Positions 21,035 to 56,478 of a DNA stretch of 64,000 nt are shown in pieces. The stretch's first letter is position 1. Every line of letters starts with the position of its first letter. Origin of the DNA: Roseivirga sp. BDSF3-8. Lineage in GTDB: Bacteria > Bacteroidota > Bacteroidia > Cytophagales > Cyclobacteriaceae. The stretch is taken from positions 3,241,001 through 3,305,000 of the forward strand of contig NZ_JBGNFV010000001.1 in NCBI RefSeq assembly GCF_041449215.1, given 5' to 3'. Made by a program: the position numbers and the translations under genes. The notes beneath the pieces are model-generated. The model was not told the origin of the DNA. It made no database searches and worked only from the letters and a program-made list of their open reading frames with translations.

Positions 21035-21423
21035 TCTCCCCATCAGTTGCTGGCTCTTATTAACCCCGTAGTAGCCAGTGTTTTACAATGGGTTATTTAT
21101 GTGTTGCTCCAAGTCAGGAAATGTAATATCTTTTGTAAAAAGAAGATTTAGCTATAATCATTTCCCTTCCTCCTGACGTTTTGGCCTGTACCATACGGGC
21201 CGCAGACATTCTATTCCCCCTCATTTCCTCAATGTGAACAAAACCTTCCATTGTGATATATGCACCATTATTACACGGTTTTTTACTATCGAATCAACAA
21301 TTTTTGCACGTAAGCCTTCCGAAGTAAGCATCGGCATATAGAGTTTTCGCTCGCTTCGGGGCTCGACTTAAGATAAGAATGAGTATAAATCGAACCGCGG
21401 GTGTACCGCAAACGGGCAACAAG
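21035..21423. other. Gene-free stretch before the signalling block
   Basis: No convincing gene or tRNA is seen in these 389 bases. GTCAGGA at 21113-21119 and TCCTGAC at 21171-21177 form an inverted repeat whose inner AATG/CATT also pair. The sequence between them is AT-rich. A GTAAGC repeat occurs near 21310 and 21325. The promoter of the CheR-to-ABC block is expected here but was not pinned down. Confidence 0.5.
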
Positions 21424-22248
21424 ATGCATGAGATCGAAATATCGGAGTTGAGGCGATTGACAGAGGTAATTAAGTTGTACCACAATTACGACTTCACCAA
21501 TTATGCTATTTCCTCTTTCAAAAGGCGCGTATCCCGTATTCTGGATTTATATAAAATTCCTTCAGTAGACCTTCTGATTAAAAAGATCAGGGAAGAGGAT
21601 GGCTTTTTCAATACATTTCTTGAAGAGCTCACGGTGAATGTTACTGAGATGTTCCGTGACCCCAGCTTCTGGAGGGAAATTCGCGACCAGGTGATACCGA
21701 ATATCCTGCTTAACCATAACCAGATATCTATCTGGCATGCTGGCTGTAGCAGTGGTGAGGAAGTGTTTTCTATGGCGATATTGCTGAAAGAGATGGGTAT
21801 TCATCACAAGGCGAAGATTATAGCCACTGACATTGACCGTGCCATTCTGGATCGTGCTAAATCCGGTGAGTACCAGCTAAAGCACATGGACCTGAATGAG
21901 AAGAACTATATCCGCTTCCAGGGAAAGAGTTCTCTAAAGGACTACTACAAGGAAGATAACGGAAAAGTGTATATGGATAAAAGCCTCGTGAATAATGTTT
22001 CGTGGCGTGAGCATGACCTTGTACGGGGTGTGGTTTTCAATAAGTTCGACCTCGTTTTGTGCCGCAATGTCATGATCTACTTTAACCAGACACTTCAGAA
22101 TGTGGTGCTTAAGAAAATTCACGAAAGCCTTTTCCGCTACAGCTACCTGTGTATTGGCTCAAAGGAGTCGCTCATATGGTGTGAGATAGCCAATAAGTTT
22201 ATCGTGGTAAACAACGAAGAAAAAATCTATAAAAAGATAAAAGACTAA
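21424..22248 (+). CDS. CheR-type protein methyltransferase
   Basis: A 274-residue SAM-dependent methyltransferase. Classical CheR methylates glutamates on chemoreceptors. The N-terminal all-helical domain (about 1-85) ends before NVTEMFRDPSFW, the usual start of the catalytic domain. SAM motif I is WHAGCSSGEEVFSMAIL, and the closing motif is LVLCRNVMIYFN. ATG 21424 is used; an upstream in-frame ATG at 21379 adds 15 residues unlike the family. It is followed 21 bases later by a CheB domain protein. No methyl-accepting chemoreceptor gene is in the window, so the methylated target is open; the adjacent sensor phosphatase is one candidate. Confidence 0.92.
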   Translation: MHEIEISELRRLTEVIKLYHNYDFTNYAISSFKRRVSRILDLYKIPSVDLLIKKIREEDGFFNTFLEELTVNVTEMFRDPSFWREIRDQVIPNILLNHNQISIWHAGCSSGEEVFSMAILLKEMGIHHKAKIIATDIDRAILDRAKSGEYQLKHMDLNEKNYIRFQGKSSLKDYYKEDNGKVYMDKSLVNNVSWREHDLVRGVVFNKFDLVLCRNVMIYFNQTLQNVVLKKIHESLFRYSYLCIGSKESLIWCEIANKFIVVNNEEKIYKKIKD

Positions 22249-22269
22249 GAACAAGCTTAAAGCCCGGCA

Positions 22270-22866
22270 ATGGGACGATTTAACGTTAATAATCAGTACA
22301 AGGCCATCGTGATAGGCGGGTCGGCCGGAAGCTTTCAGGGTATTACGCGCATACTGTCGTCGATTCCTGAGGACTTCACCCTACCCATTATCATGTGCCT
22401 TCACCGGCTTAAGCATGTTCGCAATGGCTTTGTAGAGGCCCTTTCTATTAAAAGCATAAATGCTGTAAAGGAGCCTTATGATAAAGAACCGGTAAAGAAG
22501 AAGAATGTCTACCTGGCCCCTGCAAACTACCACCTGAGCGTGGAACTTGGCCATACCTTTTCATTGAGTACAGAGGAAATGGTCAATAACAGCAGGCCAA
22601 GTATAGACATCACACTGGAGACGGCGGCTTATGTTTATCGCAATAAGCTCATCGGAATCCTGCTTTCGGGAGCCAATCGTGATGGCGCTATGGGGATGAA
22701 ACGCATCAAAGACAGGGGCGGACTGACCATAGTACAGGACCCGGCAGAGTGCATGATCGAAACCATGCCCGCGGCCGCCCTTAAGCTCACAGAAATAGAT
22801 TATACGCTGAAAGTAGATGAGATCATCAGCTTTCTGCTCGAATTAGATAAGTGTTATAAAAGTTGA
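22270..22866 (+). CDS. Stand-alone CheB methylesterase domain protein
   Basis: CheB removes methyl esters (and deamidates glutamine) on receptors. At 198 residues this protein is only the catalytic domain, with no receiver domain, so phospho-control of the classical kind is absent. The catalytic triad is visible: Ser18 in GGSAGS, His45 in CLHR and Asp138 in GANRDGAMGM. It is four bases from the next gene, so one transcript is very likely. It pairs with the CheR gene just upstream. Confidence 0.92.
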   Translation: MGRFNVNNQYKAIVIGGSAGSFQGITRILSSIPEDFTLPIIMCLHRLKHVRNGFVEALSIKSINAVKEPYDKEPVKKKNVYLAPANYHLSVELGHTFSLSTEEMVNNSRPSIDITLETAAYVYRNKLIGILLSGANRDGAMGMKRIKDRGGLTIVQDPAECMIETMPAAALKLTEIDYTLKVDEIISFLLELDKCYKS

Positions 22867-22870
22867 TCAT

Positions 22871-23734
22871 ATGAAGGCCCTAAGCAAAAGTCTGAGCCTT
22901 ATTTTCATCCTGCTTTTTATTGCCGGCATCGTGGCCGGGGCTTACTTTATGTATACCCTGCCGGACGATTTGGTAACAGAAACCAGTGTGGTAGATCTTA
23001 GCGAGATTGCTGAGGTAGACCCCTTTCTGAGCAGACTGAATATTATTCTCGGCATAGCAGCATTTTCAGGCCTGGTGGCCATTGTCATGCTCATGGCAAA
23101 TGCTAATAAGCAGGCAGAAAATGTAGTGTATGTGGAAAAGTTTACGGATGAGAGTGCCTCCGCAAGTACCTCAGTTAATGAGGATACTGAAGGAGATGTC
23201 GCTGGTAGTCACAGTGAACTTGATAGTGTGGTGCGTGAAGCTATAGCAGAAGGAGGAAGTGCGAAGCACCAAGCCGAGCAGGTACTCTCTGCTATTTCTA
23301 ATAAGCTGGAGGCAAGCCAGGGAGCTATGTACCTCGCCAGATATGGCAGTGAGGTGCGTAAGATTGAGCTTTTCGCCTCATATGCTTTTATCATGCCCGA
23401 AAGTGCTTCACTCGTATACGAGTTTGGAGAGGGACTTGCCGGCCAGGCAGCTAAGGAAGGTAAAGCGGTGAATATTACCGCCGTGCCAGACGGATACCTT
23501 AAAATACTCAGCGGACTGGGTAGCAGTACACCAACCAACCTGGCCATTATCCCCTTCATGAAGGGCAAGATGGTGGCTGGCGTGGTCGAGATTGCCTCTT
23601 TTAAGCCTTTCCGGGGTAAGGACATCAAAGCGCTGGAGCAGGCATTTTCCATACTGCCCGAAGCGGTTGGGTTTGACGCCGACCAGTCAGTAAGTGAAGA
23701 AGCCTCAGTAGGGCAGGAACTTGTAAATGAATAA
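22871..23734 (+). CDS. Membrane-anchored GAF domain protein
   Basis: A 287-residue protein with two transmembrane helices (about residues 7-27 and 58-77) joined by a short acidic periplasmic loop. An acidic linker follows, then one GAF domain (about 120-275), with EFGEGLAGQAAKEGKAVNI and IPFMKGKMVAGVVEIAS as signature stretches. GAF domains bind small ligands or partner proteins. A very similar GAF pattern (RFAEGLVGQAA, GVLEFAGF) is inside the next protein, suggesting that one arose from the other or that they pair. The gene lies between CheB and the sensor phosphatase with 4- and 15-base gaps. Confidence 0.85.
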   Translation: MKALSKSLSLIFILLFIAGIVAGAYFMYTLPDDLVTETSVVDLSEIAEVDPFLSRLNIILGIAAFSGLVAIVMLMANANKQAENVVYVEKFTDESASASTSVNEDTEGDVAGSHSELDSVVREAIAEGGSAKHQAEQVLSAISNKLEASQGAMYLARYGSEVRKIELFASYAFIMPESASLVYEFGEGLAGQAAKEGKAVNITAVPDGYLKILSGLGSSTPTNLAIIPFMKGKMVAGVVEIASFKPFRGKDIKALEQAFSILPEAVGFDADQSVSEEASVGQELVNE

Positions 23735-23749
23735 ACGCCAGGATATCGT

Positions 23750-26700
23750 ATGTTCAGGAAAATAAAAATAGGAAGTAAGATTACGGCGGTACTACTCACA
23801 GTAGTGACCCTCACTATTGCAGCCGTAAGCTTCATTACCTACAATTTCAGTAAAAAAGCCCTGGAGGAGAAGTACACCGAGAGCCTGAGCGTTATACTTA
23901 AGCTCAAAAAGGATAAGATCACCTACTTCTTCGAGCAGGCCGGCACGGACGCCAGGGTACTTCGCCGCAGCGATATTACCCAGTCAAACCTTGAGTGGCT
24001 GACTTCAGGCGAAGACAGCCTTACCCAAATGGCGACGGACAGGCTCGATAACTTTATTGCGCCATATTTTGAAGCAGGAAGGTATCATAACATCCTTTTG
24101 GCGGGAGCAGATGGGCAGGTCTACTATAGTTATAACCGTAACGTAATCTCTTCGGGCAGTTACCTTACCGACCCGGATGGTGTGACTTTTGCCAAAGGAA
24201 CTGAAAACCCCTACTTCAGCCATATTTTCAAGCAGGGGGATGCTCATTACCTGCTTCACGCACTACCTATGCAGGGGGGCGGAAGCAGTGCCATGCTTAT
24301 CATGCAAATAGACATGGCGCCGATATATACCGTATTATCTGATACTACTGGTCTCGGCAATACAGGCGAGGTACTCATAGGAAGAGAGAAAAATAATAAA
24401 GCCATATTTCTCAATCCTCTTCGTCACGATGAGGGGGAATTCCTTACCAAGGGTGTTTATATTGGCGAAAAGGCTGGTGTACCGTTACAGAAAGCCGTAA
24501 GTGGTGAGAGTGGAATAGCGATAGACACAGACTACCGGAAGCAGGAAATTCTTGCTGCCTGGGACTACATACCTTCGATGAACTGGGGTATCGTGACCAA
24601 GATTGATACGGCAGAGATTTACGGTGAGGTGGAAAACCTCCTGTGGAAGTTTCTCATGGCCGGTGCCATTATCCTGGTACTTGCTACTATGATTGCCTTT
24701 ATCTTCTCCAGGATACTCATTGACCCCGTATTGGACCTTAAAGGAACCTTAAGCCTGCTGGGCAAAGGGGTGCTTCCTGATAAGGTAAAGAAGAAAAGTA
24801 ATGACGAAATCGGTGAAATGGCCGGTGCCATTGATAACCTTGTGCAGTCACTGAAGCGCACAGCCCGTTTCGCTCACCAGATCGGAAAGGGGGATTTCGA
24901 TGCCGATTTCCAGCCTCTGAGCCAGGATGATACCCTGGGTACGGCGCTTATTAACATGCGCGAAAGTATTCAGGAAGCAGAGAAGCGCGATAAGGAACGT
25001 AACTGGATCGTGACCGGCGTAGCTGAACTGGGTAATATCCTTCGTGCGCATGATGACCTCGAAAAGCTCGGTGATGAAATTACTGCCTTTGTATCCGAGA
25101 AGATTGGCGCCATACAGGGAGCCTTCTACGTGGTCAACGATGATGACCCGAATGATGTCTTCATCGAAATGAAGGCGAGTTATGCCTACCATAAAAAGAA
25201 ATACCTCAGTGGACGGTACCGTTTTGCTGAAGGACTTGTAGGGCAGGCGGCGATTGAGCAGGACACCCTGCTTCGCACAGAGATACCTCATGATTATGTA
25301 ACTGTTACTTCCGGACTTCTCGGAGACCAGCGCCCTACCTGTCTGCTGCTTGTGCCCCTTATCACTGATGAAAAGGTCTATGGAGTGCTTGAGTTTGCCG
25401 GATTTAACCGCTTTAATGCCAGTCAGGTAAAATTCGTTCAGGAGATCAGCCTCATTATCGCCCGTACTATCTTTAACATAAAAGTAAACGAGCGTACCCG
25501 TAACTTACTCGAAGAGTCTCAGCACATGAGTAATGAGCTCCAGGAGCAGCAGGAGATCCTGCGCCAGAATGCCGAGGAAATGGAGGCCACCCAGGAGGAG
25601 CTGCGTAGAACTAACCAGCAGCTTGAGGACCAGATAGAAGAGGTAAACCGCGGGCAGAAGCGTATGCAGCTACTGCTTGAGAATGCCTCTGAGGTAATTA
25701 TGATCTATGAGTCTGATAATAGCGTACGCTACGTATCTCCTTCGGTTGAGCGTATCCTTGGATACAGCCAGCAGGAGCTTGTAGGGCGCACAGATCTTGA
25801 ACACGTTGATCCCGATTACCGTGACGTATTCGAGGATATGTTCAAAGACCTGCACGCTAACCCTGCTGATTCGGTAACCATCCAGTATGTATATCACCGC
25901 AAAGACGGGGAGGACATCTGGCTTGAAGCTACCGGTAAGAACCTTCTCAGTGACCCGGCTATTCAGGGTATTCTGATAAATACCCGTGATATTACCGAGA
26001 GAAGGCGTGCGGAACAGGAACAGCGGATGCGTAGCCAGATGCAGGCTCTTTCCGAAAACTCACCAGACCTTATTACCCGACTCAACGACGAGGGATCGAT
26101 CTTCTATATCAACCCGACCATTGAGTCTTACACAGGGTATAATCCCACGCACTTCCTGCAGAAGAATATCACGGAGACCGATCTGGAGCAAAGAGTGGTA
26201 GATCAGTGGCTCAACATCCTGCAGACAGTAGGTGAGTCTAATGAGAAAGTTAAGATGGAAATGGACTTTCCTAGCCCAATGGGGCCTCGCATCATGCAGG
26301 TGAATGCCATTCCGGAATTTAACGAAGAAAATAAGTTTGAGTCCGTGCTCGTAGTGAGCCACGACATTACAGAGCGAAAGCATATTGAGCTGGAGATTCA
26401 GAATAAGAATAAGAAGATCACAGAGTCTATCAATTATGCGAAGCGTATCCAGGGAGCTATTCTGCCTGATAACCATGTGATACGCCGCAGGCTGCCGGAA
26501 AGCTTTATCTTCTATAAGGCTCGTGATGTGGTGTCCGGAGACTTCCCCTGGTACATGCAGATGGGAGACGATCTCTACATCGCTGCCGTAGACTGTACCG
26601 GCCACGGTGTACCTGGCGCTTTGATATCACTTATCGGATACTTCCTTCTCAATGATATCGTACGAAGCCGTAAGGTGTCGGATCCGGGTGTCATCCTTGA

Positions 26701-27169
26701 CCTCCTTGATGAGGGTGTAACTCAGACGCTTCGACAGGACAGAGATGACTCCAAGACAAAAGACGGTATGGATATCGCCCTTTGTAAGATCAACACCAAA
26801 ACTAATGAACTACAGTACGCCGGTGCCCACCGACCGCTGTATGTAATGAAGGAAGGTGAACTCGAAGAGATAAAAGGTAACCGCTTCCCTATCGGTGGCG
26901 GACGCTATAAAAATCAGACCAACTTCACCAATACTACATTGGAAATGAAGGAGGGAGATTCCGTATTTTTCTGTTCTGACGGCTTCCCTGACCAGTTTGG
27001 TGGGCCCGACAACAGGAAGTTCGGACCTAAGAGACTGCGGAACCTAATCCGTGAAACACAGCACCTGCCCATGGAAGAAATGCACGATGTATTCGACCGT
27101 GAATGGGAAGGCTGGAGAGGCGATCACAAGCAGACCGATGATGTACTATTGATAGGCATTAGGTTCTGA
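23750..27169 (+). CDS. Cache-HAMP-GAF-PAS-PAS sensor with PP2C (SpoIIE) phosphatase output
   Basis: A 1139-residue sensor phosphatase. Order: transmembrane helix (about 10-32), periplasmic Cache-like sensor (33-296), second helix (297-320), HAMP (320-390), GAF (425-580), coiled coil (583-645, rich in Glu/Gln), PAS 1 (645-765), PAS 2 (765-885), a short coiled coil ending INYAKRIQGAILP, and a PP2C/SpoIIE phosphatase (915-1139). Phosphatase metal motifs are VSGDFPW, VDCTGHGVPGA, FCSDGFPDQFGG and QTDDVLL. Such enzymes dephosphorylate a serine or threonine on a small antagonist protein. Here the kinase and SiaC follow directly, so SiaC is the expected substrate, as for SiaA in Pseudomonas. Confidence 0.9.
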   Translation: MFRKIKIGSKITAVLLTVVTLTIAAVSFITYNFSKKALEEKYTESLSVILKLKKDKITYFFEQAGTDARVLRRSDITQSNLEWLTSGEDSLTQMATDRLDNFIAPYFEAGRYHNILLAGADGQVYYSYNRNVISSGSYLTDPDGVTFAKGTENPYFSHIFKQGDAHYLLHALPMQGGGSSAMLIMQIDMAPIYTVLSDTTGLGNTGEVLIGREKNNKAIFLNPLRHDEGEFLTKGVYIGEKAGVPLQKAVSGESGIAIDTDYRKQEILAAWDYIPSMNWGIVTKIDTAEIYGEVENLLWKFLMAGAIILVLATMIAFIFSRILIDPVLDLKGTLSLLGKGVLPDKVKKKSNDEIGEMAGAIDNLVQSLKRTARFAHQIGKGDFDADFQPLSQDDTLGTALINMRESIQEAEKRDKERNWIVTGVAELGNILRAHDDLEKLGDEITAFVSEKIGAIQGAFYVVNDDDPNDVFIEMKASYAYHKKKYLSGRYRFAEGLVGQAAIEQDTLLRTEIPHDYVTVTSGLLGDQRPTCLLLVPLITDEKVYGVLEFAGFNRFNASQVKFVQEISLIIARTIFNIKVNERTRNLLEESQHMSNELQEQQEILRQNAEEMEATQEELRRTNQQLEDQIEEVNRGQKRMQLLLENASEVIMIYESDNSVRYVSPSVERILGYSQQELVGRTDLEHVDPDYRDVFEDMFKDLHANPADSVTIQYVYHRKDGEDIWLEATGKNLLSDPAIQGILINTRDITERRRAEQEQRMRSQMQALSENSPDLITRLNDEGSIFYINPTIESYTGYNPTHFLQKNITETDLEQRVVDQWLNILQTVGESNEKVKMEMDFPSPMGPRIMQVNAIPEFNEENKFESVLVVSHDITERKHIELEIQNKNKKITESINYAKRIQGAILPDNHVIRRRLPESFIFYKARDVVSGDFPWYMQMGDDLYIAAVDCTGHGVPGALISLIGYFLLNDIVRSRKVSDPGVILDLLDEGVTQTLRQDRDDSKTKDGMDIALCKINTKTNELQYAGAHRPLYVMKEGELEEIKGNRFPIGGGRYKNQTNFTNTTLEMKEGDSVFFCSDGFPDQFGGPDNRKFGPKRLRNLIRETQHLPMEEMHDVFDREWEGWRGDHKQTDDVLLIGIRF

Positions 27170-27264
27170 TACACAACAAGATTTGTTGTTTGACCTGATT
27201 TCCTGCATTAAGCGCCAGATGGCTGATTTAGCAGGTAGGTGAAAAAAATTAATTTTGAAACGAA

Positions 27265-27834
27265 GTGGATAATCAAGTATTAACGGAAAAACCGATGAAG
27301 TACATTTATGAGCTTCATAAGACCATGCTAGCCCGTAACCTCATCTTGGTATACGAAGGGGAATTCACCCAGGAGATCACCAAGTCGGTACTGGCCATGG
27401 CAGAGCGTAACATGGATTCGATGGGAGAAGAGTCCAGCATTAAGCGTAAAGTGTTTAATGTGATGGTGGAGTGCCTCCAGAATATTGTAAAGCATGCTGA
27501 TGATAAGGCAGAAGACGTAGAGCGTCAGACGGCTATTTTCATGATAGGCAAGCAGGAGGACGAATACATTATTATTTCCGGTAATCCTATCCGGAATGAA
27601 TTTGTGCCTAACCTTCGCGAAAAACTCGAGCGTATTAATGGTTTGGACAAAGACGGTCTTAAGCAGCTTTACAAGGATATCATCAAAAACACCGAGATAT
27701 CGGACAAAGGTGGCGCAGGGCTAGGGTTTGTTGACATGGCGCGAAAGTCAGGACGTCCGTTGGAATTTGACTTTGAACCTATCAACGACCAGCAGTCTTT
27801 CTTCTCACTTACGACCAAAATCGCAAGACTTTAA
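27265..27834 (+). CDS. SiaB-like protein kinase (anti-sigma-factor-kinase fold)
   Basis: A 189-residue GHKL-fold kinase like SiaB, which phosphorylates SiaC. The N box is VMVECLQNIVKHADD (catalytic Glu and Mg-binding Asn), and the glycine-rich lid is GGAGLGFVDMARKSG. GTG 27265 is used, with ATG 27295 the alternative; the GTG version adds a short polar start. TAATTTTG at 27250-27257 resembles a -7 promoter element, but it would sit too close to the GTG, which slightly favours the ATG if it is real. SiaC follows 23 bases later. Confidence 0.88.
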   Translation: MDNQVLTEKPMKYIYELHKTMLARNLILVYEGEFTQEITKSVLAMAERNMDSMGEESSIKRKVFNVMVECLQNIVKHADDKAEDVERQTAIFMIGKQEDEYIIISGNPIRNEFVPNLREKLERINGLDKDGLKQLYKDIIKNTEISDKGGAGLGFVDMARKSGRPLEFDFEPINDQQSFFSLTTKIARL

Positions 27835-27857
27835 ATAAACGCTAACAACTGGAAACT

Positions 27858-28220
27858 ATGGAAATCATAAATCTGGAGGGTACTGAAGATACCCCAAAGA
27901 TCCTGTTGGATAAAGGAAACGGCATTTTCGAAATATCCGGTCGTTCCCTTCCTGAGGATTCTGCTGAATTTTACGGGCCCGTTCTCGACTGGATTGGTGC
28001 CTACAGCGAAGATCCCAACCCTTCTACCAACTTTGTATTTAAGCTGGAGTATTTCAACACGGCATCTTCCAAACTTATTCTGGATGTACTGAGCGCATTG
28101 GAGGATGTTGACAATATCTCTATTGACTGGTATTTCCATGAGGATGATGAGGACATGGAAGAAGCAGGTGAGGAATTCAGCGAACTGGTAGAAATTCCGT
28201 TCGAATTTAAAACTTACTAA
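27858..28220 (+). CDS. SiaC-like regulatory phosphoprotein (DUF1987)
   Basis: A 120-residue phospho-switch protein. The typical start is INLEGTEDTPKILLDKGNG, and the core is FKLEYFNTASSKLILDVL. Thr68 in that core falls at the same number and place as the threonine phosphorylated by SiaB in Pseudomonas SiaC. In Pseudomonas, unphosphorylated SiaC activates the diguanylate cyclase SiaD. No GGDEF gene is present here, so the partner is unknown; the adjacent ABC transporter is a candidate. The C-terminal part is acidic (HEDDEDMEEAGEE). Confidence 0.92.
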   Translation: MEIINLEGTEDTPKILLDKGNGIFEISGRSLPEDSAEFYGPVLDWIGAYSEDPNPSTNFVFKLEYFNTASSKLILDVLSALEDVDNISIDWYFHEDDEDMEEAGEEFSELVEIPFEFKTY

Positions 28221-28313
28221 GGAGTGCCGGATGCTTCCGGTACTTCCGTTTCATTTTACCAACTTTCATTATATCCGGCCCTGCCCTGAGGCAAGGCACA
28301 GGAATCGTACACC

Positions 28314-31300
28314 ATGAGCGAAGAAATACTTAAAGCACTCACTCAGCTATTCGCCATTATTACCAAGCAGGACGGTGGGGTTACCGAGACAGAGCGTAAC
28401 TTCGTGATCGGCTTTTTCCAGCAGGAGCTGGACCAGGATTCTGTTAAGGAATACCTGGAACTGTACGATAAATACGTAGGATATAACGAGGAAGAAAAAG
28501 ATGCTTCCGTAAAGAAGGAGCGTAAGCTTACTTCCGTACGTGACTCCGTAAGAACGCTGGGAATCTGTAAAAAGATTAACAAGACCCTCACCCAAAAGCA
28601 GAAGGTCGTTGTATTGGTGAAGCTACTGGAGCTGGTGGGCTCCGATGGCAACTACACCTCCCAGCGTATGGAGATCATAGATACCGTCTCCAACGTATTT
28701 AAGGTTGGTAAGGAAGAATATAAGCTCATCGAAGGTTTTGTACTTAAAGAAAACAGCGAAGAGCTTCCTTTTGCAGATATTCTCACTGTTTCTAACAGTA
28801 GCCAGGCTACCGGAGAGGCCAAACATATGGAGGCTGAGGTAGAAGGCGAGATTATCTTTATGAACGTGCGGAGTGTGGATATGTATTTCGTAAAATACAT
28901 AGGTCCCCAGGAAGTAATGCTCAACGGCTTTATTATGAAGAGCCGTCAGGTTTACCTCTTCAGCCACGGTAGCACGATCAAAACCCCTCTTGGTTCTGCC
29001 CTGTACTACAGCGATCTTATTTCGCAGTTTATCAGTGGCTTTACTGCTCACAATATTTCCTTTAATGCAAATGATCTCGAATTCCGGTTCCCTAACGGGG
29101 CCATTGGCCTTCGGGATATCAATATCAGTGAAGGCCCCGGCAGGCTCATTGGTATCATGGGAGCCAGTGGAGCAGGTAAGACCACCCTGCTCAATGTGTT
29201 GGCGGGTATTGAAAAGCCGAGTAAAGGTGAGGTACTCATCAATGGCTTCAATGTCCACTCAGAGAAGGATAAAATAGAGGGAGTAGTAGGGTATGTGGCG
29301 CAGGATGACCTCCTGATTGAAGAGCTTACCGTGTACCAAAACCTCTACTATAATGCCAAGCTCTGCTTCGCGGACATGAGTGAGGAGGAGCTGGATAAGC
29401 GCGTAATGGACGTGCTTACCAGCCTCGGACTTGAGCAGCGCAAAGACCTTAAGGTAGGTAGCGTGCTGGACAAGACTATTTCAGGTGGGCAGCGTAAGCG
29501 ACTTAATATAGCCCTGGAGCTTATTCGTGAGCCTGCAGTCCTTTTTGTGGATGAGCCAACCTCGGGACTCTCCTCACGTGACTCTGAAAATGTGATTGAC
29601 CTCCTGAAAGAACTTTCTCTTAAAGGAAAGCTCATTTATGTGGTTATTCACCAGCCCAGCTCAGACATCTATAAGATGTTTGACAAAATGTACCTGCTGG
29701 ATACCGGCGGCTATCCTGTTTTCTATGGTAATCCTGTGGAAGCGGTTACCTATTTTAAATCCATCACCAACCAGGTAGACCGCGAGCGGGGTCAGTGTCA
29801 CACCTGTGGTAATGTAAACCCTGAGCAGATATTTAATATCATCGAAGCCAAGGTGGTGGATGAGTACGGGCAGTTGACCAATAAGCGTAAGGTGAACCCC
29901 ACAAAGTGGCACGAGTTTTATAACCAAAACTTTAATATAAAGCGCGTACCGGAAGTAAAAGAGGTTCCCCCTAAAGCACTTAATATCCCTAACAAGCTGA
30001 AGCAAACCCTGATCTTCACTACCAGGGATATGCTCAGTAAGCTCAGTAACCGACAGTACCTGCTTATCAATTTGCTGGAAGCACCTGTCCTGGCTATCAT
30101 CCTGGCATTCATCATCAGGTACAAGAGTGCACCCGGAGAGGGTGGTTACCTCTTCCGGTTTAATGAAAACATTCCGGCTTTCATGCTCATGTCGATCGTG
30201 GTGGCCCTCTTCATGGGGCTGTCAGTCTCTGCTGAAGAGATCATTCGCGACAGGAAAATACTCAGACGTGAAAGCTTCCTCAATCTGAGCTGGAACAGTT
30301 ATCTGTCTTCCAAGATTGTGATCCTGTTCCTGATGTCCGCCATTCAGACCTTTACCTTTGTGGTGATAGGTCACCTCATACTTGAGATACAGGGCATGAC
30401 ATTTGCCTTCTGGGCTGTTCTCTTTACCGTAAGCTGTTTTGCCAATGTGCTGGGGCTCAATATTTCCAGTGCATTCAATAGCGCCGTTACCGTGTATATT
30501 CTCATACCCATGCTGCTCATCCCTCAGATGATACTCAGTGGCTTGCTCTTTAGCTTTGATAAGCTGAATGACACCATCAGTACCCGCGGTAAGGTGCCTA
30601 TTGTGGCCGACCTTATGGCCAGCCGCTGGGCCTATGAGGCTATGACTGTGTATCAGTATAAGAATAACCCCTATGAATCACCCATATTCACGCTGGAGCA
30701 GCGTGAGCGCCAGGCTGATTTCAAGGCTGCTTTCTTTGCCGGCAAGCTTCGCGAAAAGGTGCAGAGTATCATGAATAACCTTGAGGCTGAGGACGACAGC
30801 ACCCGCAGAGTACTATCTTATGACCTGTACATGCTTCGCAGCGAGTTGCAAAAGGAAAGTTATACCGAAGGCCTGGAAGATCTGGATCTGGAAAAGGACC
30901 TGACTCCGGAAACGATGAATGCTGAGACCGAATCAAAATTAAGGCAGTATATAGACGGGCTGGAAGAGCACTACAAAACGCTATTTAACGATGCGGTCTC
31001 CAAGAAAGAAAAAATGGTCTACCTGCTAGAGAAGGATTATGATTACAATATCAATGAATTCAAGAACAGGTACTTTAATGAAAGCCTGTCAGATCTGGTG
31101 CGTAATGTGAGTGTAAAAGAGCGAATACTGGAATATGACGGCCGGCTGATTCAACAGGTAGATCCGATATTCCTGACGCCTGAAGCCCCGGATCATGCGT
31201 TGGATTACCGTGCCCACTTCTTTGCACCTTCCAAGCATCTGTTCGGCAGGTACTTTGATACCTTCGGATTCAATCTGACAGTAATATGGTGCATGACCCT

Positions 31301-31379
31301 GCTGCTATACGCAATGCTCTATTTCGAAATACTGGATAAGGCACTGGGAGCATTCGGTAAGATCAGATTTAAAAAATAA
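28314..31379 (+). CDS. TerB-like domain fused to ABCG-type ABC transporter
   Basis: A 1021-residue protein. Residues about 1-150 form a helical TerB-like domain with acidic metal-binding-like turns (KQDGGVTETE; GSDGNYTSQ). A region of about 110 residues precedes the ATPase. The ATPase has Walker A GASGAGKTT near residue 282, signature ISGGQRKR, Walker B VLFVDEPTSGL and H-loop VIHQPSSD, as in ABCG/ABC-2 exporters. A CHTCGNVNPEQ motif near 498 could bind metal. Transmembrane helices cluster at about 590-770, then a long helical cytoplasmic or coiled segment, and one last helix near 990-1010. Substrate unknown. Its place 93 bases after SiaC suggests it is the switch output, which is inference. 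Confidence 0.88.
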   Translation: MSEEILKALTQLFAIITKQDGGVTETERNFVIGFFQQELDQDSVKEYLELYDKYVGYNEEEKDASVKKERKLTSVRDSVRTLGICKKINKTLTQKQKVVVLVKLLELVGSDGNYTSQRMEIIDTVSNVFKVGKEEYKLIEGFVLKENSEELPFADILTVSNSSQATGEAKHMEAEVEGEIIFMNVRSVDMYFVKYIGPQEVMLNGFIMKSRQVYLFSHGSTIKTPLGSALYYSDLISQFISGFTAHNISFNANDLEFRFPNGAIGLRDINISEGPGRLIGIMGASGAGKTTLLNVLAGIEKPSKGEVLINGFNVHSEKDKIEGVVGYVAQDDLLIEELTVYQNLYYNAKLCFADMSEEELDKRVMDVLTSLGLEQRKDLKVGSVLDKTISGGQRKRLNIALELIREPAVLFVDEPTSGLSSRDSENVIDLLKELSLKGKLIYVVIHQPSSDIYKMFDKMYLLDTGGYPVFYGNPVEAVTYFKSITNQVDRERGQCHTCGNVNPEQIFNIIEAKVVDEYGQLTNKRKVNPTKWHEFYNQNFNIKRVPEVKEVPPKALNIPNKLKQTLIFTTRDMLSKLSNRQYLLINLLEAPVLAIILAFIIRYKSAPGEGGYLFRFNENIPAFMLMSIVVALFMGLSVSAEEIIRDRKILRRESFLNLSWNSYLSSKIVILFLMSAIQTFTFVVIGHLILEIQGMTFAFWAVLFTVSCFANVLGLNISSAFNSAVTVYILIPMLLIPQMILSGLLFSFDKLNDTISTRGKVPIVADLMASRWAYEAMTVYQYKNNPYESPIFTLEQRERQADFKAAFFAGKLREKVQSIMNNLEAEDDSTRRVLSYDLYMLRSELQKESYTEGLEDLDLEKDLTPETMNAETESKLRQYIDGLEEHYKTLFNDAVSKKEKMVYLLEKDYDYNINEFKNRYFNESLSDLVRNVSVKERILEYDGRLIQQVDPIFLTPEAPDHALDYRAHFFAPSKHLFGRYFDTFGFNLTVIWCMTLLLYAMLYFEILDKALGAFGKIRFKK

Positions 31380-31431: not shown

Positions 31432-31462
31432 TTGTCTAACGAAAACCTAATCTCTATTTTTG
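31432..31462 (+). promoter_or_regulatory. Bacteroidota-type promoter upstream of the lipoprotein gene
   Basis: TTG at 31432-31434, a 20-base spacer and TATTTTTG at 31455-31462 match the -33/-7 consensus of this phylum. Transcription would begin near 31468, about 15 bases before ATG 31483. Confidence 0.6.
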
Positions 31463-31482: not shown

Positions 31483-32382
31483 ATGAATAGATTTTATCTC
31501 GCTTGCGCCGGTCTGTTTCTGTTTGCCTGTGGCAGCAGTAACACTCCTAACGAACAGGCTCTTCTGGATAGCCTGGATACTGTTGAGGAAGAAGCGCCAA
31601 TGCTCTCTGATGAGCTTGTTGGTGGTATTTTGCAGCAGATTCCTGCTCCATTGGAGATATCTGTATTAATTAAAGAAGCAGGAGCTAATTATGATAATGC
31701 ACTGCTTAACGATCCCGAAAAAGCGGCTAATTATAATAGCAACTTTAAAAGGGCGCTGAACCTGGGGGTTTATGGCACGGATCTTGGTTACACGAATATA
31801 TATGAGCAGAACCAGGATGCAATGTCGTATCTCAATAGTGTGAAAGACCTTGCGGATGGCCTCAGTATCGGACAGTTTTTTGACTTCCGTACGATTAAGC
31901 AACTGGCCACCAATAGCAGTAACCTGGACAGTCTGCTCCTGATCACTACCAGGAACTTTAATGATATCAACGGGTACCTGCAGGAACAAAAGCGAAGCAA
32001 CCTGAGCGTCTTATTGCTCACGGGTGGCTGGCTGGAGGCCATGCATATACTTACTGAGGTGTCTGAAAAAAGCCCTGATAACCGTGAGCTCATGGAGCGT
32101 ATCGGTGAGCAGAAGATCATTTTGGAAAACATTATGCTGTTGCTCGATAACTATGCAAAAGGTGATCCCCAGATTGCAGAATTAGCTGAAAACATGAAAG
32201 GGTTGCAGACGGCGTTCGAAAAAATTCAGATCACTACTATCTACGCCGAACCTACTTCTAAAGTAGTGGACGGTGTGCTGGTAATCGAAGATAATAGCAA
32301 GACTACCATAGACATAACTCAGGAGGATGTGGATAATATTAAGAAGGCCACAGATTCAATAAGAAATCTTATCATCGGATAA
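31483..32382 (+). CDS. Outer-envelope lipoprotein of unknown function
   Basis: A 299-residue lipoprotein: MNRFYLACAGLFLFACGSS gives a signal with the lipobox LFAC. The mature part is helical and acidic, with repeated LDSL/LDNY-like segments and no recognised domain. An in-frame ATT/TTG-region start at 31432 is rejected because it falls inside the predicted promoter and precedes the signal peptide. It has its own promoter just after the ABC transporter gene and is probably cotranscribed with the next secreted protein (19-base gap). Confidence 0.75.
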   Translation: MNRFYLACAGLFLFACGSSNTPNEQALLDSLDTVEEEAPMLSDELVGGILQQIPAPLEISVLIKEAGANYDNALLNDPEKAANYNSNFKRALNLGVYGTDLGYTNIYEQNQDAMSYLNSVKDLADGLSIGQFFDFRTIKQLATNSSNLDSLLLITTRNFNDINGYLQEQKRSNLSVLLLTGGWLEAMHILTEVSEKSPDNRELMERIGEQKIILENIMLLLDNYAKGDPQIAELAENMKGLQTAFEKIQITTIYAEPTSKVVDGVLVIEDNSKTTIDITQEDVDNIKKATDSIRNLIIG

Positions 32383-32400: not shown

Positions 32401-32835
32401 ATGAAAAACCTATTATTTATCATAGCGGCACTCTTTTGCTTTACAGCTTTTTCTTCTTCGGAAGTGAGTGCCCAGTGCAGCAGTGAGCAACTGACGGATG
32501 CCTGTATCCCTAAGCTTCAGAATGGCTATACCTTTCTGAAGAGCTACCAGATTGACGGTAAAGACGGAGCTAAGAATAAGGTGGAATACAGCTATGTATT
32601 TACCAAAGGCGCTCAGTATATGATCAATATTTGCTCAGAAGGGCAGGGAACTGACGGTATCGTAGTGACGCTCTATGACAGCAACCGTAAAAAGATGGTT
32701 TCTAGCCTGGTCAATGGTCAGTATATTTCCGCCATAGCCTATCCCTGCAATAATACAGGTATATACTACATTACCTTTACCTTTGACGACAGTAATAAGT
32801 ACTGCGGAGGTAGCGTGCTGGGATTCAAACGCTAA
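32401..32835 (+). CDS. Secreted cysteine-containing protein
   Basis: A 144-residue exported protein, function not recognised. The signal peptide ends near VSAQ. The mature part has six cysteines (QCSS, DACIP, NICSE, YPCNN, KYCGG) and an all-beta look, ending GVLVF-like strands (GSVLGFKR). The even number of cysteines suggests disulfides in the periplasm or outside. The middle SEGQGTDGIVVTLYDSNRKK resembles the small beta-sandwich domains of some exported proteins, but no family can be named. A clear terminator follows. Confidence 0.7.
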   Translation: MKNLLFIIAALFCFTAFSSSEVSAQCSSEQLTDACIPKLQNGYTFLKSYQIDGKDGAKNKVEYSYVFTKGAQYMINICSEGQGTDGIVVTLYDSNRKKMVSSLVNGQYISAIAYPCNNTGIYYITFTFDDSNKYCGGSVLGFKR

Positions 32836-32861: not shown

Positions 32862-32895
32862 AAAAAGGCTGCCCTTGATAGGGGGCAGCCTTTTC
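32862..32895 (+). terminator. Rho-independent terminator
   Basis: AAAAAGGCTGCCC and GGGCAGCCTTTT form a strong stem with a loop of TTGATAGG, followed by a T run. It closes the transcript of the secreted-protein pair. Confidence 0.9.
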
Positions 32896-35687: not shown

Positions 35688-36632
35688 GTGTCTGTAAGCG
35701 TAAGACAACTCACTAAGACCTATGGCAGCCAGCAGGCTGTGGATACTATCTCCTTTGAGGTAAATAAGGGGGAGGTATTAGGGTTTCTCGGGCCTAACGG
35801 AGCGGGTAAATCCACTACCATGAAGATAGCCACCTGCTACCTGCCCCCTACTGCCGGAACCGTACTGGTAGAAGGCCATGACGTGCTTCATCAGCCCATG
35901 GCTGTGCGAAAGAGTGTGGGCTACCTGCCTGAGCACAATCCTCTCTACCTGGATATGTACGTTCATGAGTACTTGCGCTTTACAGGCTCATTATATGACA
36001 TGCGGGGTAGCGTGCTACGCCAGCGTGTGAAAGACATGGTGCATACGGTGGGGCTGGGTCTGGAGCAGAATAAAAAGATAGGAGCGCTCAGTAAGGGCTA
36101 TCGCCAGCGCGTAGGGCTGGCCCAGGCACTGCTGCACGATCCGCCGGTACTTATCCTTGATGAGCCCACCACCGGGCTGGACCCTAACCAGCTTGCAGAG
36201 ATACGGGGACTTATCAAGAGCCTGAGTAGTGATAAGACGGTAATCTTCAGCACTCATATCATGCAGGAAGTGCAGGCTATGTGTGACCGGGTGATTATAA
36301 TTAACCGCGGACAAATCGTTGCAGATAGCCCCGTGGCCGCCCTGAGTGGTCGTGCTGCAGGCCAGCGCCTGCTGGTAGAATTTACTGAACCTGTGGCCGA
36401 TACGGTGATAGAAACAGCTCCCGGAGTAGCTGGAAGTAAGCAGGTAGGCCCTAACCTGTATGAGTTACATGCCGCCAAAGAAAGGGCAGACATCCGCGCA
36501 GATGTTTTTCGCTGGGCAGTGGGGGCAGGGCTTATCATCGTAGGCATGCAGGAGCAGAAGAGCGACCTCGAAAGTATTTTCCAGGAACTTACCGGTGCCC
36601 ATATGGTGCCGAAAAATGCAGAGGCATCATGA
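35688..36632 (+). CDS. gldA: Gliding-motility ABC transporter ATPase GldA
   Basis: ATPase of the GldA-GldF-GldG transporter, which is needed for gliding in Flavobacterium johnsoniae. The 314-residue protein has Walker A GPNGAGKSTTMKI, signature LSKGYRQR, Walker B VLILDEPTTGLDP and H-loop FSTHIMQE, with a C-terminal extension typical of ABC-2 exporter ATPases (about 80 residues). The start is GTG, 7 bases after the SDR gene, and its stop overlaps the gldF start (ATGA). Confidence 0.93.
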   Translation: MSVSVRQLTKTYGSQQAVDTISFEVNKGEVLGFLGPNGAGKSTTMKIATCYLPPTAGTVLVEGHDVLHQPMAVRKSVGYLPEHNPLYLDMYVHEYLRFTGSLYDMRGSVLRQRVKDMVHTVGLGLEQNKKIGALSKGYRQRVGLAQALLHDPPVLILDEPTTGLDPNQLAEIRGLIKSLSSDKTVIFSTHIMQEVQAMCDRVIIINRGQIVADSPVAALSGRAAGQRLLVEFTEPVADTVIETAPGVAGSKQVGPNLYELHAAKERADIRADVFRWAVGAGLIIVGMQEQKSDLESIFQELTGAHMVPKNAEAS

Positions 36633-37357
36633 TCAGTGTCCTTAAAAAAGAAATAGACAGTTTTCTGGATTCCCTGGTGGCCTATGTGGTAATCGTTGTC
36701 TTTCTTACAGGCATTGGGCTGCTTATGTGGGTCTTTCCCGAAACCAGTGTACTGGAATATGGCTATGCAGATATGGGTACCCTGTTCTCATACGGGCCCT
36801 ACGTATTCATGTTTCTGATACCCGCCATCACCATGCGCACATTTGCTGAGGAGCGGCGGGCCGGTACCATGGAGCTTTTACTTACTAAGCCTCTTTCCGA
36901 CTGGCAGATTATCCTGGGTAAATACCTTTCTGCCTTTTTGCTTGTATTCTTTGCCGTACTGCCCACGCTTATCTACTATTATTCTATTTACGAATTAGGT
37001 CAGCCAGAAGGCAATGTGGATTCTGCCGGCGTATTTGGCTCCTACCTGGGGCTGCTTTTGCTCGGAGGCGTATTTGCTGCCATAGGCATTTTCTCCTCTG
37101 CGCTGGCCAGTAACCAGATAGTGGCCTTTATCATTGCGGTATTTCTCTGCTTTCTGCTATACAGCGGGCTGGGGTCATTTGCAGCTATCAATGACTGGGG
37201 AAGCCTTTCTTACTTTTTGGAGCAGGCAGGCTTGCTATACCATTACCAGGCTCTGGGCAAGGGACTGGTGGATAGCCGCAATGTAATCTACCTTATCAGT
37301 GTCATCCTGCTTATGCTTGCCCTGACCAGACTTATAATCGGATCGAGAAAATGGTAA
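36629..37357 (+). CDS. gldF: Gliding-motility ABC transporter permease GldF
   Basis: Six-helix inner-membrane permease (242 residues) of the GldA-GldF-GldG transporter. It starts MISVLKKEIDSFLDSLVAYV, as in GldF proteins. TFAEERRAGTMELLLTKPLSDW (about residues 70-91) is the ABC-2 coupling segment. It overlaps gldA by four bases and gldG by seven, so all three are translationally coupled. Confidence 0.93.
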   Translation: MISVLKKEIDSFLDSLVAYVVIVVFLTGIGLLMWVFPETSVLEYGYADMGTLFSYGPYVFMFLIPAITMRTFAEERRAGTMELLLTKPLSDWQIILGKYLSAFLLVFFAVLPTLIYYYSIYELGQPEGNVDSAGVFGSYLGLLLLGGVFAAIGIFSSALASNQIVAFIIAVFLCFLLYSGLGSFAAINDWGSLSYFLEQAGLLYHYQALGKGLVDSRNVIYLISVILLMLALTRLIIGSRKW

Positions 37358-39039
37358 ATCTGGACAGCAAAAAAACTGAAGACCTGTTACGGTTTTTCGT
37401 GCTCTTTGCCGCACTTATTCTGGCAAATATGCTTGGTGACCGTTTCTTTTTCCGGGCAGACCTTACGGAGGAGCAGCGCTATACCATTAACGAAGCCACC
37501 AAAGAGCTACTTACCAGCCTAGAGGATCCGGTGTATGTGGAGGTTTACCTGGAAGGTGAGTTTCCCTCAGGGTTTCAGCGTTTGCAACGTAGTATACGTG
37601 AGACGTTAGAAGAGTTTCGTGCCTATGCGGGTGATAATATACAGTTTAAGTTTGTAGACCCTAACCTGGCAGCCAGTGCCAGTGGCAGGCAGGAGTTTTA
37701 CCAGCGGCTGGCCAGGCTGGGAATTCAGCCTACCAATCTGTATGATACGGAAGATGGCGGCCGCACGGAAAAACTCATTTTCCCCGGTGCTCTGGTCGCT
37801 TACGGCGGAGAAGAAACCGGCGTATTACTACTGAAAGGTAACCAGGGGGCCTCTCCTGAGGAGCGGCTCAACCAGAGTGTAGAGGGACTGGAATACGAAC
37901 TGGCCACAGCAATCCGCAAGGTGACCGGTGGAAGCAAGCCTCGTATTGGCTGGCTCCAGGGACATGGAGAGTCCGACAGCATCAGCTACCAGGGCGTACA
38001 GGAAGTATTGCAGGAGTTTTACCGGCTGGATAAGGCCGATCTGACTGAAAGTGAGAACCTGCTGGGCTACGATGCCATTATAATGGCCAAGCCACGCCGC
38101 GCCTTTAACCGGGACGATCGCTACAAGCTGGACCAGTACGTGATGAATGGCGGGAACCTGCTTATGTTTCTGGATGGTCTTAAGGTGGAGGAGGACAGCC
38201 TTAACCGGGAGTCATACCTGGCTTTTCCGCAGGACCTTCAATTGCGGAATATGCTCTTTCGCTATGGCGTACGTATAAACGAAGACCTGATACAGGACCT
38301 GAATGCGGCCCCTTTTCCCGTAGTAACTGGCTATATGGGTAATCAGCCACAGATCAGGCTTTTGCCCTGGCCATTTTACCCACTCATGAACCGGTACAGC
38401 AATCATCCCATTACCCGTAATCTGGATGCCGTGCTGGGAAGGTACGTTAGTAGCGTAGATACGGTAAAAGCAGAGGGCATTACCAAGACACCGCTTATTT
38501 ACACCAGCCAGTATACACGGGTGCTGCCGGCGCCGGTGGAAGTAAGTTATAACTCCATGCGCCGGGATATGCAGCCGGAAAGCTTCCAGGATCCCGCACA
38601 GCCAGTTGCCTGGCTCCTTGAAGGTCCCTTTACTTCCTCATTCCGAAACCGCATATTACCTCAGGTTGCAAACAGTCGCTCTTACCGGGAAACGGGAGAG
38701 CCGGCGAAGATACTGGTGACCAGTGATGGCGATCTGCTCGCCTCTCAGCTCAGTCCCCGTACCCGGCAGCGTGTGCCCCTGGGAGTAGATCCCTACACCC
38801 AGACAGATTTTGCTAACGATGATTTCCTGCTGAATGCCCTCGCTTACATGCTGGATGAGGACGGCCTTATTGCTGCCAGGAACAAGCGCATCAGTATAAG
38901 GCCGCTGGATGCTCCCGAAGTTGAAGAAAGTGCCCTGAAATGGCAGCTATTCAACCTCCTCACGCCTGTCATCATCGTGGTATTATTTGGGGTGATAAGA
39001 TATTTTTACAGAAGAAATAAATACGCCACATTCAAATGA
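37351..39039 (+). CDS. gldG: Gliding-motility ABC transporter substrate-binding protein GldG
   Basis: A 562-residue membrane-anchored extracytoplasmic subunit. A short N-terminus is followed by one helix (FFVLFAALILANMLG), the large soluble region with the GldG pattern (FRADLTEEQRYTINEATKELL; GWLQGHGES near residue 206; MNGGNLLMFLDGLK near 265), and a C-terminal helix (LFNLLTPVIIVVLFGVIRYF). It ends on the gldF/gldG/DUF4340 overlap chain. It resembles the IFT52/GldG family of proteins with a fallen glutamine-amidotransferase-like fold, and no catalytic Cys is visible. Confidence 0.92.
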   Translation: MVNLDSKKTEDLLRFFVLFAALILANMLGDRFFFRADLTEEQRYTINEATKELLTSLEDPVYVEVYLEGEFPSGFQRLQRSIRETLEEFRAYAGDNIQFKFVDPNLAASASGRQEFYQRLARLGIQPTNLYDTEDGGRTEKLIFPGALVAYGGEETGVLLLKGNQGASPEERLNQSVEGLEYELATAIRKVTGGSKPRIGWLQGHGESDSISYQGVQEVLQEFYRLDKADLTESENLLGYDAIIMAKPRRAFNRDDRYKLDQYVMNGGNLLMFLDGLKVEEDSLNRESYLAFPQDLQLRNMLFRYGVRINEDLIQDLNAAPFPVVTGYMGNQPQIRLLPWPFYPLMNRYSNHPITRNLDAVLGRYVSSVDTVKAEGITKTPLIYTSQYTRVLPAPVEVSYNSMRRDMQPESFQDPAQPVAWLLEGPFTSSFRNRILPQVANSRSYRETGEPAKILVTSDGDLLASQLSPRTRQRVPLGVDPYTQTDFANDDFLLNALAYMLDEDGLIAARNKRISIRPLDAPEVEESALKWQLFNLLTPVIIVVLFGVIRYFYRRNKYATFK

Positions 39040-55939: not shown

Positions 55940-56478
55940 ACGTGTATGTATGTTAATTTTTTGCTGTAAAATATAAGAGTCGGCCAAAATTAGTGTCGGA
56001 ACCCTTAGTAAACAATCGAACGGAACTATTTTAAAAGATTCTAAATAGGGAAGGCATATAGGGAACTGCAATCGTTTTAAAGTGTCCCCCGGCGCAATCC
56101 CGGATTGAGCGCCACAGGATGGTAGTTATTGTTTGAACGAGAGGTTATAGTATCTGGTTTGGTAATTTTCAAATTTTTTTGAAAGAACTTAAAAGTCTGA
56201 TATTCAGAAGTAAGTTTTTATAAAATATTCTGCGGGTATGACCCGATATAAATTGTCGTATTTTTAAACAAAGACCTTCGGCGGGTTACCAGGCCCTATT
56301 CAGTTGGTATTTGCTGCAGAAAAATGTGTACTTTCGTATATTGGAAGACGGATATTATCGTTTAAAAAGCGGCTTCCGTCAGGCTGGGATAAAGGTACCT
56401 TTTTTCCTGATTGCTCGTTTAAAACAGAAACAAGCAACAGCAAACCGGAGGCTTTTCGGACTTTTTAGTGGTTTGAGC
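55940..56478. other. Intergenic region between sdhC and the T9SS surface protein
   Basis: 539 bases without a convincing gene. It holds the sdh promoter and a stem-loop at 56091-56113 (GGCGCAATC against GATTGAGCGCC, one bulge). The frame that opens at TTG 56311 is an upstream extension of the next gene and is not thought to be coding. Confidence 0.6.
55985..56015 (-). promoter_or_regulatory. Promoter of the sdhCAB operon
   Basis: On the minus strand, TTG (56013-56015), a 20-base spacer and TAATTTTG (55985-55992) match the Bacteroidota -33/-7 consensus. It gives a leader of about 40 bases before the sdhC ATG. Confidence 0.65.

Follow-up and report, generated by a model that had tools for sequence, protein, structure and literature searches.

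In a 64,000-nucleotide stretch of the Roseivirga sp. BDSF3-8 genome (contig NZ_JBGNFV010000001.1, positions 3,241,001 to 3,305,000 of the forward strand; hereafter the window), nine consecutive genes are best explained as one transcription unit for a signal-controlled envelope transporter. The unit opens with a CheR methyltransferase, a CheB methylesterase without receiver and a membrane GAF protein (GAFtm), continues with a SiaA-like sensor phosphatase, a SiaB-type kinase and SiaC, and ends with a TerB-ABCG half-transporter, a lipoprotein and a small, probably secreted protein. As judged from sequence, the key residues of the enzymes are intact and the genes have been kept together in Cytophagales and Bacteroidales.

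A nine-gene operon

A preliminary description of this DNA listed seven genes from CheR to the transporter, all on one strand with intergenic gaps of 4 to 95 bases. Pfam and NCBIfam searches agreed with these positions and domain calls, which included a receiver-less CheB with the triad Ser18/His45/Asp138, the Cache-HAMP-GAF-PAS-PAS-PP2C order of the sensor, a SiaB-type kinase, SiaC with Thr68 and the TerB-ABCG protein. The operon comprises two further genes, for the lipoprotein and the small secreted protein, followed by a putative terminator. Its features, in window coordinates, are:

21424 to 22248, + strand: CheR methyltransferase, stand-alone (Pfam CheR, 1.2e-41; the mechanical open reading frame, ORF, opens at 21379)
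22270 to 22866, + strand: CheB methylesterase domain without receiver (Pfam CheB_methylest, 6.7e-48; triad Ser18/His45/Asp138)
22871 to 23734, + strand: GAFtm, membrane GAF protein (Pfam GAF_2)
23750 to 27169, + strand: SiaA-like sensor phosphatase, Cache-HAMP-GAF-coil-PAS-PAS-PP2C (Pfam, NCBIfam, alignment)
25559 to 25603, + strand: codons of the post-GAF coil, residues 604-618, candidate methylation helix (column conservation; motif counts mixed)
27265 to 27834, + strand: SiaB-type protein kinase (DUF6272), GTG start (PF19788, 7.9e-47; NF038262, 190.5 bits against a cut-off of 85)
27858 to 28220, + strand: SiaC (DUF1987) (PF09345, 4e-39; Thr68 codon at 28059-28061)
28221 to 28246, + strand: hairpin between the SiaC and transporter genes (11-bp stem; folding z of the gap -3.35)
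28314 to 31379, + strand: TerB-ABCG half-transporter (Pfam TerB-ABC-ABC2; predicted structure)
31483 to 32382, + strand: lipoprotein of no Pfam family (ORF opens at 31432; lipobox Cys is ORF residue 33)
32401 to 32835, + strand: small protein, probably secreted, of no Pfam family (follows the lipoprotein gene in 108 loci)
32863 to 32894, + strand: putative terminator closing the operon (14-bp stem; folding z of the region -3.50)

The CheR start is probably at 21424, as first described: among 85 aligned relatives, the 14 inspected start close to this position.

The gene order is conserved and linked to one transporter clade

We compared 60 hand-picked regions around transporter hits, about one per genus for the clade that we call ABC-I (51 loci including the window, 47 genera) plus paralogues. 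Below, L numbers denote fetched loci, G numbers genomes and f numbers families. A tree of 61 transporters placed 51 on the ABC-I side and 10 on the ABC-II side. SiaC was encoded nearby on the same strand in 48 of the 51 ABC-I loci versus none of the 10 ABC-II loci, and this linkage changes four times on the tree, against 11.9 times after shuffling. SiaB, SiaC and the transporter gene are contiguous in 45 of the 51, in all 13 families, the seven genes from CheR onwards in 34 (10 of 13 families) and all nine in 25; loci cut by contig ends were scored as lacking genes. In a scan of named genomes, from which 80 of 588 matches were taken, SiaC lay upstream in 66 of the 80 and all nine genes were found in 43. 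The preliminary description had proposed that the genes form one module and had named rare adjacency in relatives as the observation that would speak against it. The order proved to be conserved, and the linkage, the contiguity and the 66 named loci rule out an accident of gene order. That the genes form one module is therefore strongly supported by the comparison.

The two halves of the module also occur together across genomes. Among 194 genomes drawn from the order, SiaC was found in 116 and the transporter family (ABC-I and ABC-II together, E<=1e-60) in 113; 111 genomes have both, five SiaC only, two the transporter only and 76 neither.

Named loci with the operon include Marivirga, Fulvivirga, Cesiribacter, Persicobacter and Flexithrix, which we take to be Cytophagales (some record titles agree). 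Bacteroidales loci were found in the Marinilabiliaceae isolate JC017 (a long form, L155), in Carboxylicivirga (from SiaB onwards only, L150) and in Salinivirgaceae and other metagenome-assembled genomes (MAGs); these loci are often longer, encoding an additional CheR or CheB as well as a GAF/PAS sensor. Two Flavobacteriia MAGs (L136, L149) carry the operon without its last two genes. The operon is widespread but patchy across the phylum: in a draw of 395 genomes the transporter (E<=1e-60) was present in only 12, six of them by partial matches. By these comparisons it is an old operon with a well-supported gene order, kept in many environmental bacteria.

The switch proteins and methylation enzymes retain their key residues

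Residue counts, like the hairpin, folding and motif counts below, include related genomes and count a few loci twice, once as a G genome and once as a named record (for example L046/L117 and L059/L152). In the sensor, Pfam recognizes dCache_1, HAMP, GAF, two PAS and SpoIIE/PP2C domains, with dCache_1 scoring 30.9 bits, below the Pfam cut-off of 45; the Cache region varies among 44 aligned sequences. Seven PP2C sites are kept in 100 of 100 module phosphatases, as are six aspartates. SiaB matches NCBIfam SiaB_fam_kinase (NF038262) above its cut-off and the solved Pseudomonas protein (6kko chain A) at 1.5e-15; Glu69 is kept in 109 of 110 module loci and two glycines of the Gly-rich box in all 110. 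SiaC matches the solved Pseudomonas SiaC at 1.2e-15, and its alignment to the sequence of 6kko/6kkp/7e6g places Thr68 at the phosphorylatable position, kept in 113 of 114 module SiaC proteins. All three proteins fall under the NCBIfam equivalog cut-offs for the Pseudomonas proteins (for the sensor against prot_phos_SiaA, NF038263, 230 bits against 700). The CheB triad residues Ser18, His45 and Asp138 are kept in 86, 87 and 88 of 88 module CheB proteins, respectively, the remainder being gaps. In CheR, Arg229 and Asn230 (ORF numbering) are kept in 85 of 85 and other motif positions vary; which of the motif residues matter is presumed here.

Several variants of the switch were seen. Elsewhere in the window's genome (C1:5037661-5037987; L004:1489-1815, - strand), beside a GroEL-like ORF identified by eye, a 108-codon ORF without the NTAS motif runs from the beginning of a SiaB (profile positions 10-67) straight into the last part of a SiaC (positions 72-120). 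It is an apparent in-frame deletion remnant; of the SiaC genes found in this genome, only that of the module would then be intact. Family f15 genomes (G047, G102, G129, G186) have at least 21 SiaC each. The module SiaC is duplicated in tandem 5´ of the transporter in L055, and L098, L100 and L103 carry an opposite-strand SiaC-SiaB pair just downstream of the operon, adjoining an ORF labelled PP2C. In family f16 (L072, L073), a YfiR/HmsC-like gene (DUF4154, 1.1e-35 in L073, the locus tested) and a gene that by eye is TonB-receptor-like lie between GAFtm and the phosphatase, which suggests a different periplasmic input.

No diguanylate cyclase or chemoreceptor match in the window's genome

The known output of SiaC is a diguanylate cyclase, SiaD, and the preliminary description had noted that the module encodes none. 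This holds more widely: no GGDEF domain was matched in the window's genome or in any of the 116 SiaC-bearing genomes. At E<=0.001 the domain was found in one of the 194 genomes (G030, which has no SiaC match), and the same search found it in 8 of 14 control genomes. SiaC in these genomes therefore operates without a SiaD-type cyclase, its known target being missing, and action on a distant diguanylate cyclase is ruled out.

The usual partners of CheR and CheB are missing as well. The window's genome has no match to MCPsignal, the signalling domain of methyl-accepting chemotaxis proteins (MCPs), and none to CheW; CheA, which has a CheW-like domain, was not searched by its own family. CheR and CheB therefore serve something other than a chemoreceptor array, and an MCP elsewhere in this genome is ruled out as their partner. 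In 15 of 39 genomes searched, a CheR gene lay no more than about 12 kb from the transporter, and nine of these lacked both MCPsignal and CheW above cut-off. In five of the nine (G014, G019, G021, G036, G037) the module CheR is the sole CheR over cut-off.

These last genomes bear on whether CheR and CheB are left over from a chemotaxis pathway that has been lost, or work for other CheR-linked proteins encoded elsewhere in the genome. CheR is indeed matched strongly at two further places in the window's genome (open frames of 1491 and 1651 codons) and weakly at a third, as such a role elsewhere would lead one to expect. Nevertheless, the retention of the CheB triad over 88 loci and of two CheR motif residues in all 85, together with the five genomes in which the module CheR stands alone, make this explanation very improbable.

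A proposed mechanism and its output step

We propose that an extracellular ligand would bind the variable Cache domain of the SiaA-like phosphatase, that SiaB would phosphorylate SiaC at Thr68 and that the phosphatase would remove the phosphate. Methyl groups would be placed on glutamates of the post-GAF coil by CheR and taken off by the receiver-less CheB, unless the two enzymes act on a partner such as GAFtm instead; either way the sensor would be reset, and would report changes rather than levels. Unphosphorylated SiaC would then bind some cytosolic portion of the transporter, TerB being the likeliest, and so switch an ABCG exporter whose periplasmic partners may be the lipoprotein and the secreted protein. 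Taken whole, with a methylation-tuned phosphatase setting SiaC phosphorylation and SiaC gating the exporter, we consider this mechanism about evenly balanced between right and wrong. If it is right, SiaC gains a non-cyclase output, and CheR/CheB adaptation works outside chemosensory arrays. Two questions become directly testable, namely the partner of SiaC where GGDEF cyclases are missing and the substrate of CheR where chemoreceptors are missing.

The output step, which the preliminary description had also suggested, is a prediction resting on linkage, co-occurrence and extra constraint on TerB, and on these grounds gating of the transporter by SiaC is the best available reading; rate covariation did not support it. 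At matched core identity, TerB identity in three bins was 0.46, 0.51 and 0.53 among SiaC-linked transporters versus 0.31, 0.38 and 0.40 among unlinked ones, and all 85 matched subsamples lay above the unlinked value. The periplasmic insert, the least conserved part of the transporter (identity about 0.27 in ABC-I), shows no such excess.

Several observations weigh against this step. The TerB excess is gone in the closest bin (0.61 versus 0.59, with three pairs on one side), the linker shows a smaller excess too in two of four bins, and the ABC-II comparison group mixes paralogues. In a rate-covariation set of 93 loci thinned to 86, the partial correlation between SiaC and TerB was -0.13 (bootstrap -0.23 to 0.01), giving no support for contact, and its sign flips between subsets (-0.23 to +0.14). 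The measure is weak, as the known pair SiaC-PP2C reached only +0.12; SiaC-SiaB gave +0.29 overall. A TerB-coil signal of +0.40 was dropped, as it fell to +0.08 without families f15, f22 and f16. Coevolution as a pointer to the SiaC target was likewise set aside. Moreover, 29 of the best-scoring 30 SiaC genes of the order lie beside a SiaB and none lies beside the transporter within 1.5 kb; SiaC can therefore act in trans.

It is conceivable that SiaC has its target elsewhere in the cell and does not switch the transporter, which would be expressed along with it because both serve the same physiological end. The missing SiaC-TerB covariation fits this, as do 30 non-module SiaC loci that share no neighbour except SiaB (by labels and by eye), genome G020, which keeps CheR-CheB-GAFtm-PP2C-SiaB-SiaC without an adjoining transporter (L190), and the hairpin that divides the signalling from the transporter genes, such that the two halves may differ in expression level. 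Given that the SiaC and transporter-family genome sets are nearly identical, that SiaC is linked in 48 of the 51 ABC-I loci and that TerB carries added constraint in linked transporters, we regard a target elsewhere as somewhat unlikely.

A candidate methylation site in the sensor coil

That CheR and CheB form an adaptation layer on a non-chemotaxis sensor, as first suggested, has indirect support from the nine of 15 module-CheR genomes without MCPsignal or CheW and from the distribution of a coil motif, part of which speaks against it. In 44 sequences of the sensor phosphatase, one of the better conserved stretches is the coil that follows the GAF domain (LRQNAEEMEATQEEL in the window); residues 601-620 have a mean column conservation of 0.79 versus 0.23-0.48 in 20-residue blocks of the Cache region. 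We liken it to the methylation helices of chemoreceptors. In the GAF/PAS sensors that some module operons encode, the motif was present in 19 of 19 with CheR versus one of five without; the exception, L064, comes from a genome whose CheR lies just beyond the end of the fetched region. For the Glu-Glu coil motif of the phosphatase the counts were 55 of 87 with CheR versus 5 of 14 without (Fisher p 0.08), and for the motif in either sensor 66 of 86 versus 6 of 14 (p 0.02). Because the loci are related, the test values overstate independence; several loci are also truncated at the end of a contig or fetched region.

Other aspects of these counts run counter to methylation of the coil. The motif was defined after the sequences had been inspected, and the comparison with CheR-less loci is thin, a crude filter for loci cut by contig ends leaving one GAF/PAS row and two phosphatase rows without CheR. 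Twenty of the 86 module loci with CheR are without the motif, including all sampled CheR-bearing f15 and f22 loci, and the EE pair is lost in some loci that retain CheR. It was also not found in eight GAF/PAS-labelled ORFs beside CheR outside Sia operons (L177, L178, L182, L184, L188, L192, L193), two of these seven regions having been chosen as MCP controls. As a general mark of CheR neighbours the motif was rejected: it was found in 2 of 20 CheR regions (L185, L194), both beside module genes. Finally, CheR-CheB-GAFtm triples occur without Sia genes in L179 and L186 (genomes G001 and G018), as would fit GAFtm being the methylation partner.

With evidence this mixed, a methylation site in the post-GAF coil is a guess. 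The most specific version holds that CheR and CheB methylate the GAF-linked coiled coil (QNxEExxATQEE) in this operon, giving memory to a SiaC switch that directly gates an ABC exporter, with no array, histidine kinase or second messenger, so that adaptation of the chemotaxis type would be put to use in transport; it is confined to this operon because CheR-side sensors outside it lack the motif, and we think it unlikely. Better placed, if still the lesser prospect, is the possibility that CheR and CheB act on GAFtm, or on the GAF/PAS sensor where present, which would relay to the phosphatase. The separate triples and the 19 of 19 GAF/PAS sensors point this way, but 92 GAFtm sequences show neither a conserved coil nor a common Glu pair as a methylation motif, the window's operon has no GAF/PAS sensor gene, and it is the phosphatase whose coil is among its better conserved stretches.

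The transporter and its accessory proteins

The predicted structure of the transporter (pLDDT 79.6, pTM 0.66) consists of TerB, a beta domain (about 156-240), a nucleotide-binding domain (NBD), a transmembrane domain (TMD) and, before the last membrane helix, a periplasmic insert about 200 residues long (about 780-982). The model thus has an NBD followed by an ABC2 membrane domain in one chain, as in the ABCG fold, and its best PDB matches are ABCG2 and ABCG5/G8; this fold suggests a lipid-like or hydrophobic cargo. The lipobox Cys33 of the lipoprotein is invariant in 25 aligned sequences. Neither accessory protein has a convincing Pfam family, the weak scattered matches being common to no more than four of 25 lipoprotein members and one of 24 members of the secreted family, and the lipoprotein model (mean pLDDT 81) matched no PDB entry at E<=0.001. 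No assigned role was found for the transporter, lipoprotein or secreted protein of this conserved operon.

These features also admit an envelope-work machine in place of a small-molecule exporter, in which the ABCG protein would use ATP to move its helical periplasmic insert together with the lipoprotein. The predicted insert itself suggests this, as does the lipoprotein-family gene adjoining the transporter in 47 of 51 ABC-I and 5 of 10 ABC-II loci. Yet the insert is the least conserved part of the protein and the core is a standard ABCG fold, and on balance we doubt that the protein works in this way.

Relation to known systems

SiaABCD of Pseudomonas aeruginosa is a partner switch with the SiaD diguanylate cyclase as output (PMC7647112, PMC8457831). 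The present operon resembles it in having SiaC with Thr68, SiaB with the Glu and Gly-rich box, and a membrane sensor with a C-terminal PP2C domain. It differs in that no SiaC genome of the 194 has a GGDEF match and the next gene encodes an ABCG transporter, and further in that CheR, CheB and GAFtm precede the switch and that Cache, GAF and two PAS domains are part of the sensor. The methyltransferase and methylesterase with key residues kept, adjoining a membrane sensor gene, recall chemotaxis adaptation (PMC7390727), but MCPsignal and CheW-domain matches are lacking in the window's genome and CheB has no receiver. In Rv1747/PknF of Mycobacterium tuberculosis, as reported (PMC3908365, PMC5549992), a putative ABC exporter with a regulatory domain likewise lies beside the gene of a modulating kinase; there the parts are FHA domains and a serine/threonine kinase, here TerB and a SiaB/SiaC switch. 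The ABCG half-transporters ABCG2, ABCG5/G8 and ABCG1 share the order NBD then TMD in one chain, whereas here TerB and a beta domain stand in front, the periplasmic insert is large and there is a lipoprotein partner gene. The parts are known and the wiring is new: no published description of the operon was found, and among the top-ranked papers of broad searches none described SiaC together with CheR/CheB or an ABC transporter in Bacteroidota. A "SiaC" of Capnocytophaga in the literature is a sialidase.

Transcription signals and neighbouring genes

A strong hairpin lies within 120 bases 3´ of the ninth gene in 74 of 108 loci, versus 2.6 after shuffling, consistent with a terminator at this end of the operon. 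Strong hairpins also occur in 19 of 92 gaps between SiaC and the transporter versus 1.1 expected, and these gaps (n = 76) have a median folding z of -1.84, compared with 0.3, 0.41 and -0.22 in three other gaps. Shuffles permuted pairs of bases for the hairpin counts and single bases for the median folding z. Control gaps yielded few hairpins (SiaB-SiaC 1 of 39, PP2C-SiaB 0 of 81, transporter-lipoprotein 3 of 90, GAFtm-PP2C 1 of 35, lipoprotein-secreted protein 0 of 24), and the window's own PP2C-SiaB gap folds well too (z -2.94). The hairpin between SiaC and the transporter is possibly a leaky terminator or processing site and may reduce transporter expression relative to the switch. Across the window, a sigma-70-type promoter pattern showed no excess (17 versus 18.9 expected), and a presumed Bacteroidota-type pattern occurred once (1.45 expected) and not at the operon; terminator-like sites numbered 13 versus 9.5 expected.

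About 3 kb past the operon, at 35688-39039, an ABC ATPase gene precedes one encoding ABC_transp_aux and DUF7088 domains, a pair resembling the gliding-motility GldA/GldG set. The organism also shows features of a type IX secretion system: the window encodes a Peptidase C25 protein and a protein with a CHU_C type IX secretion signal, at 4374-9365 and 56311-59322.

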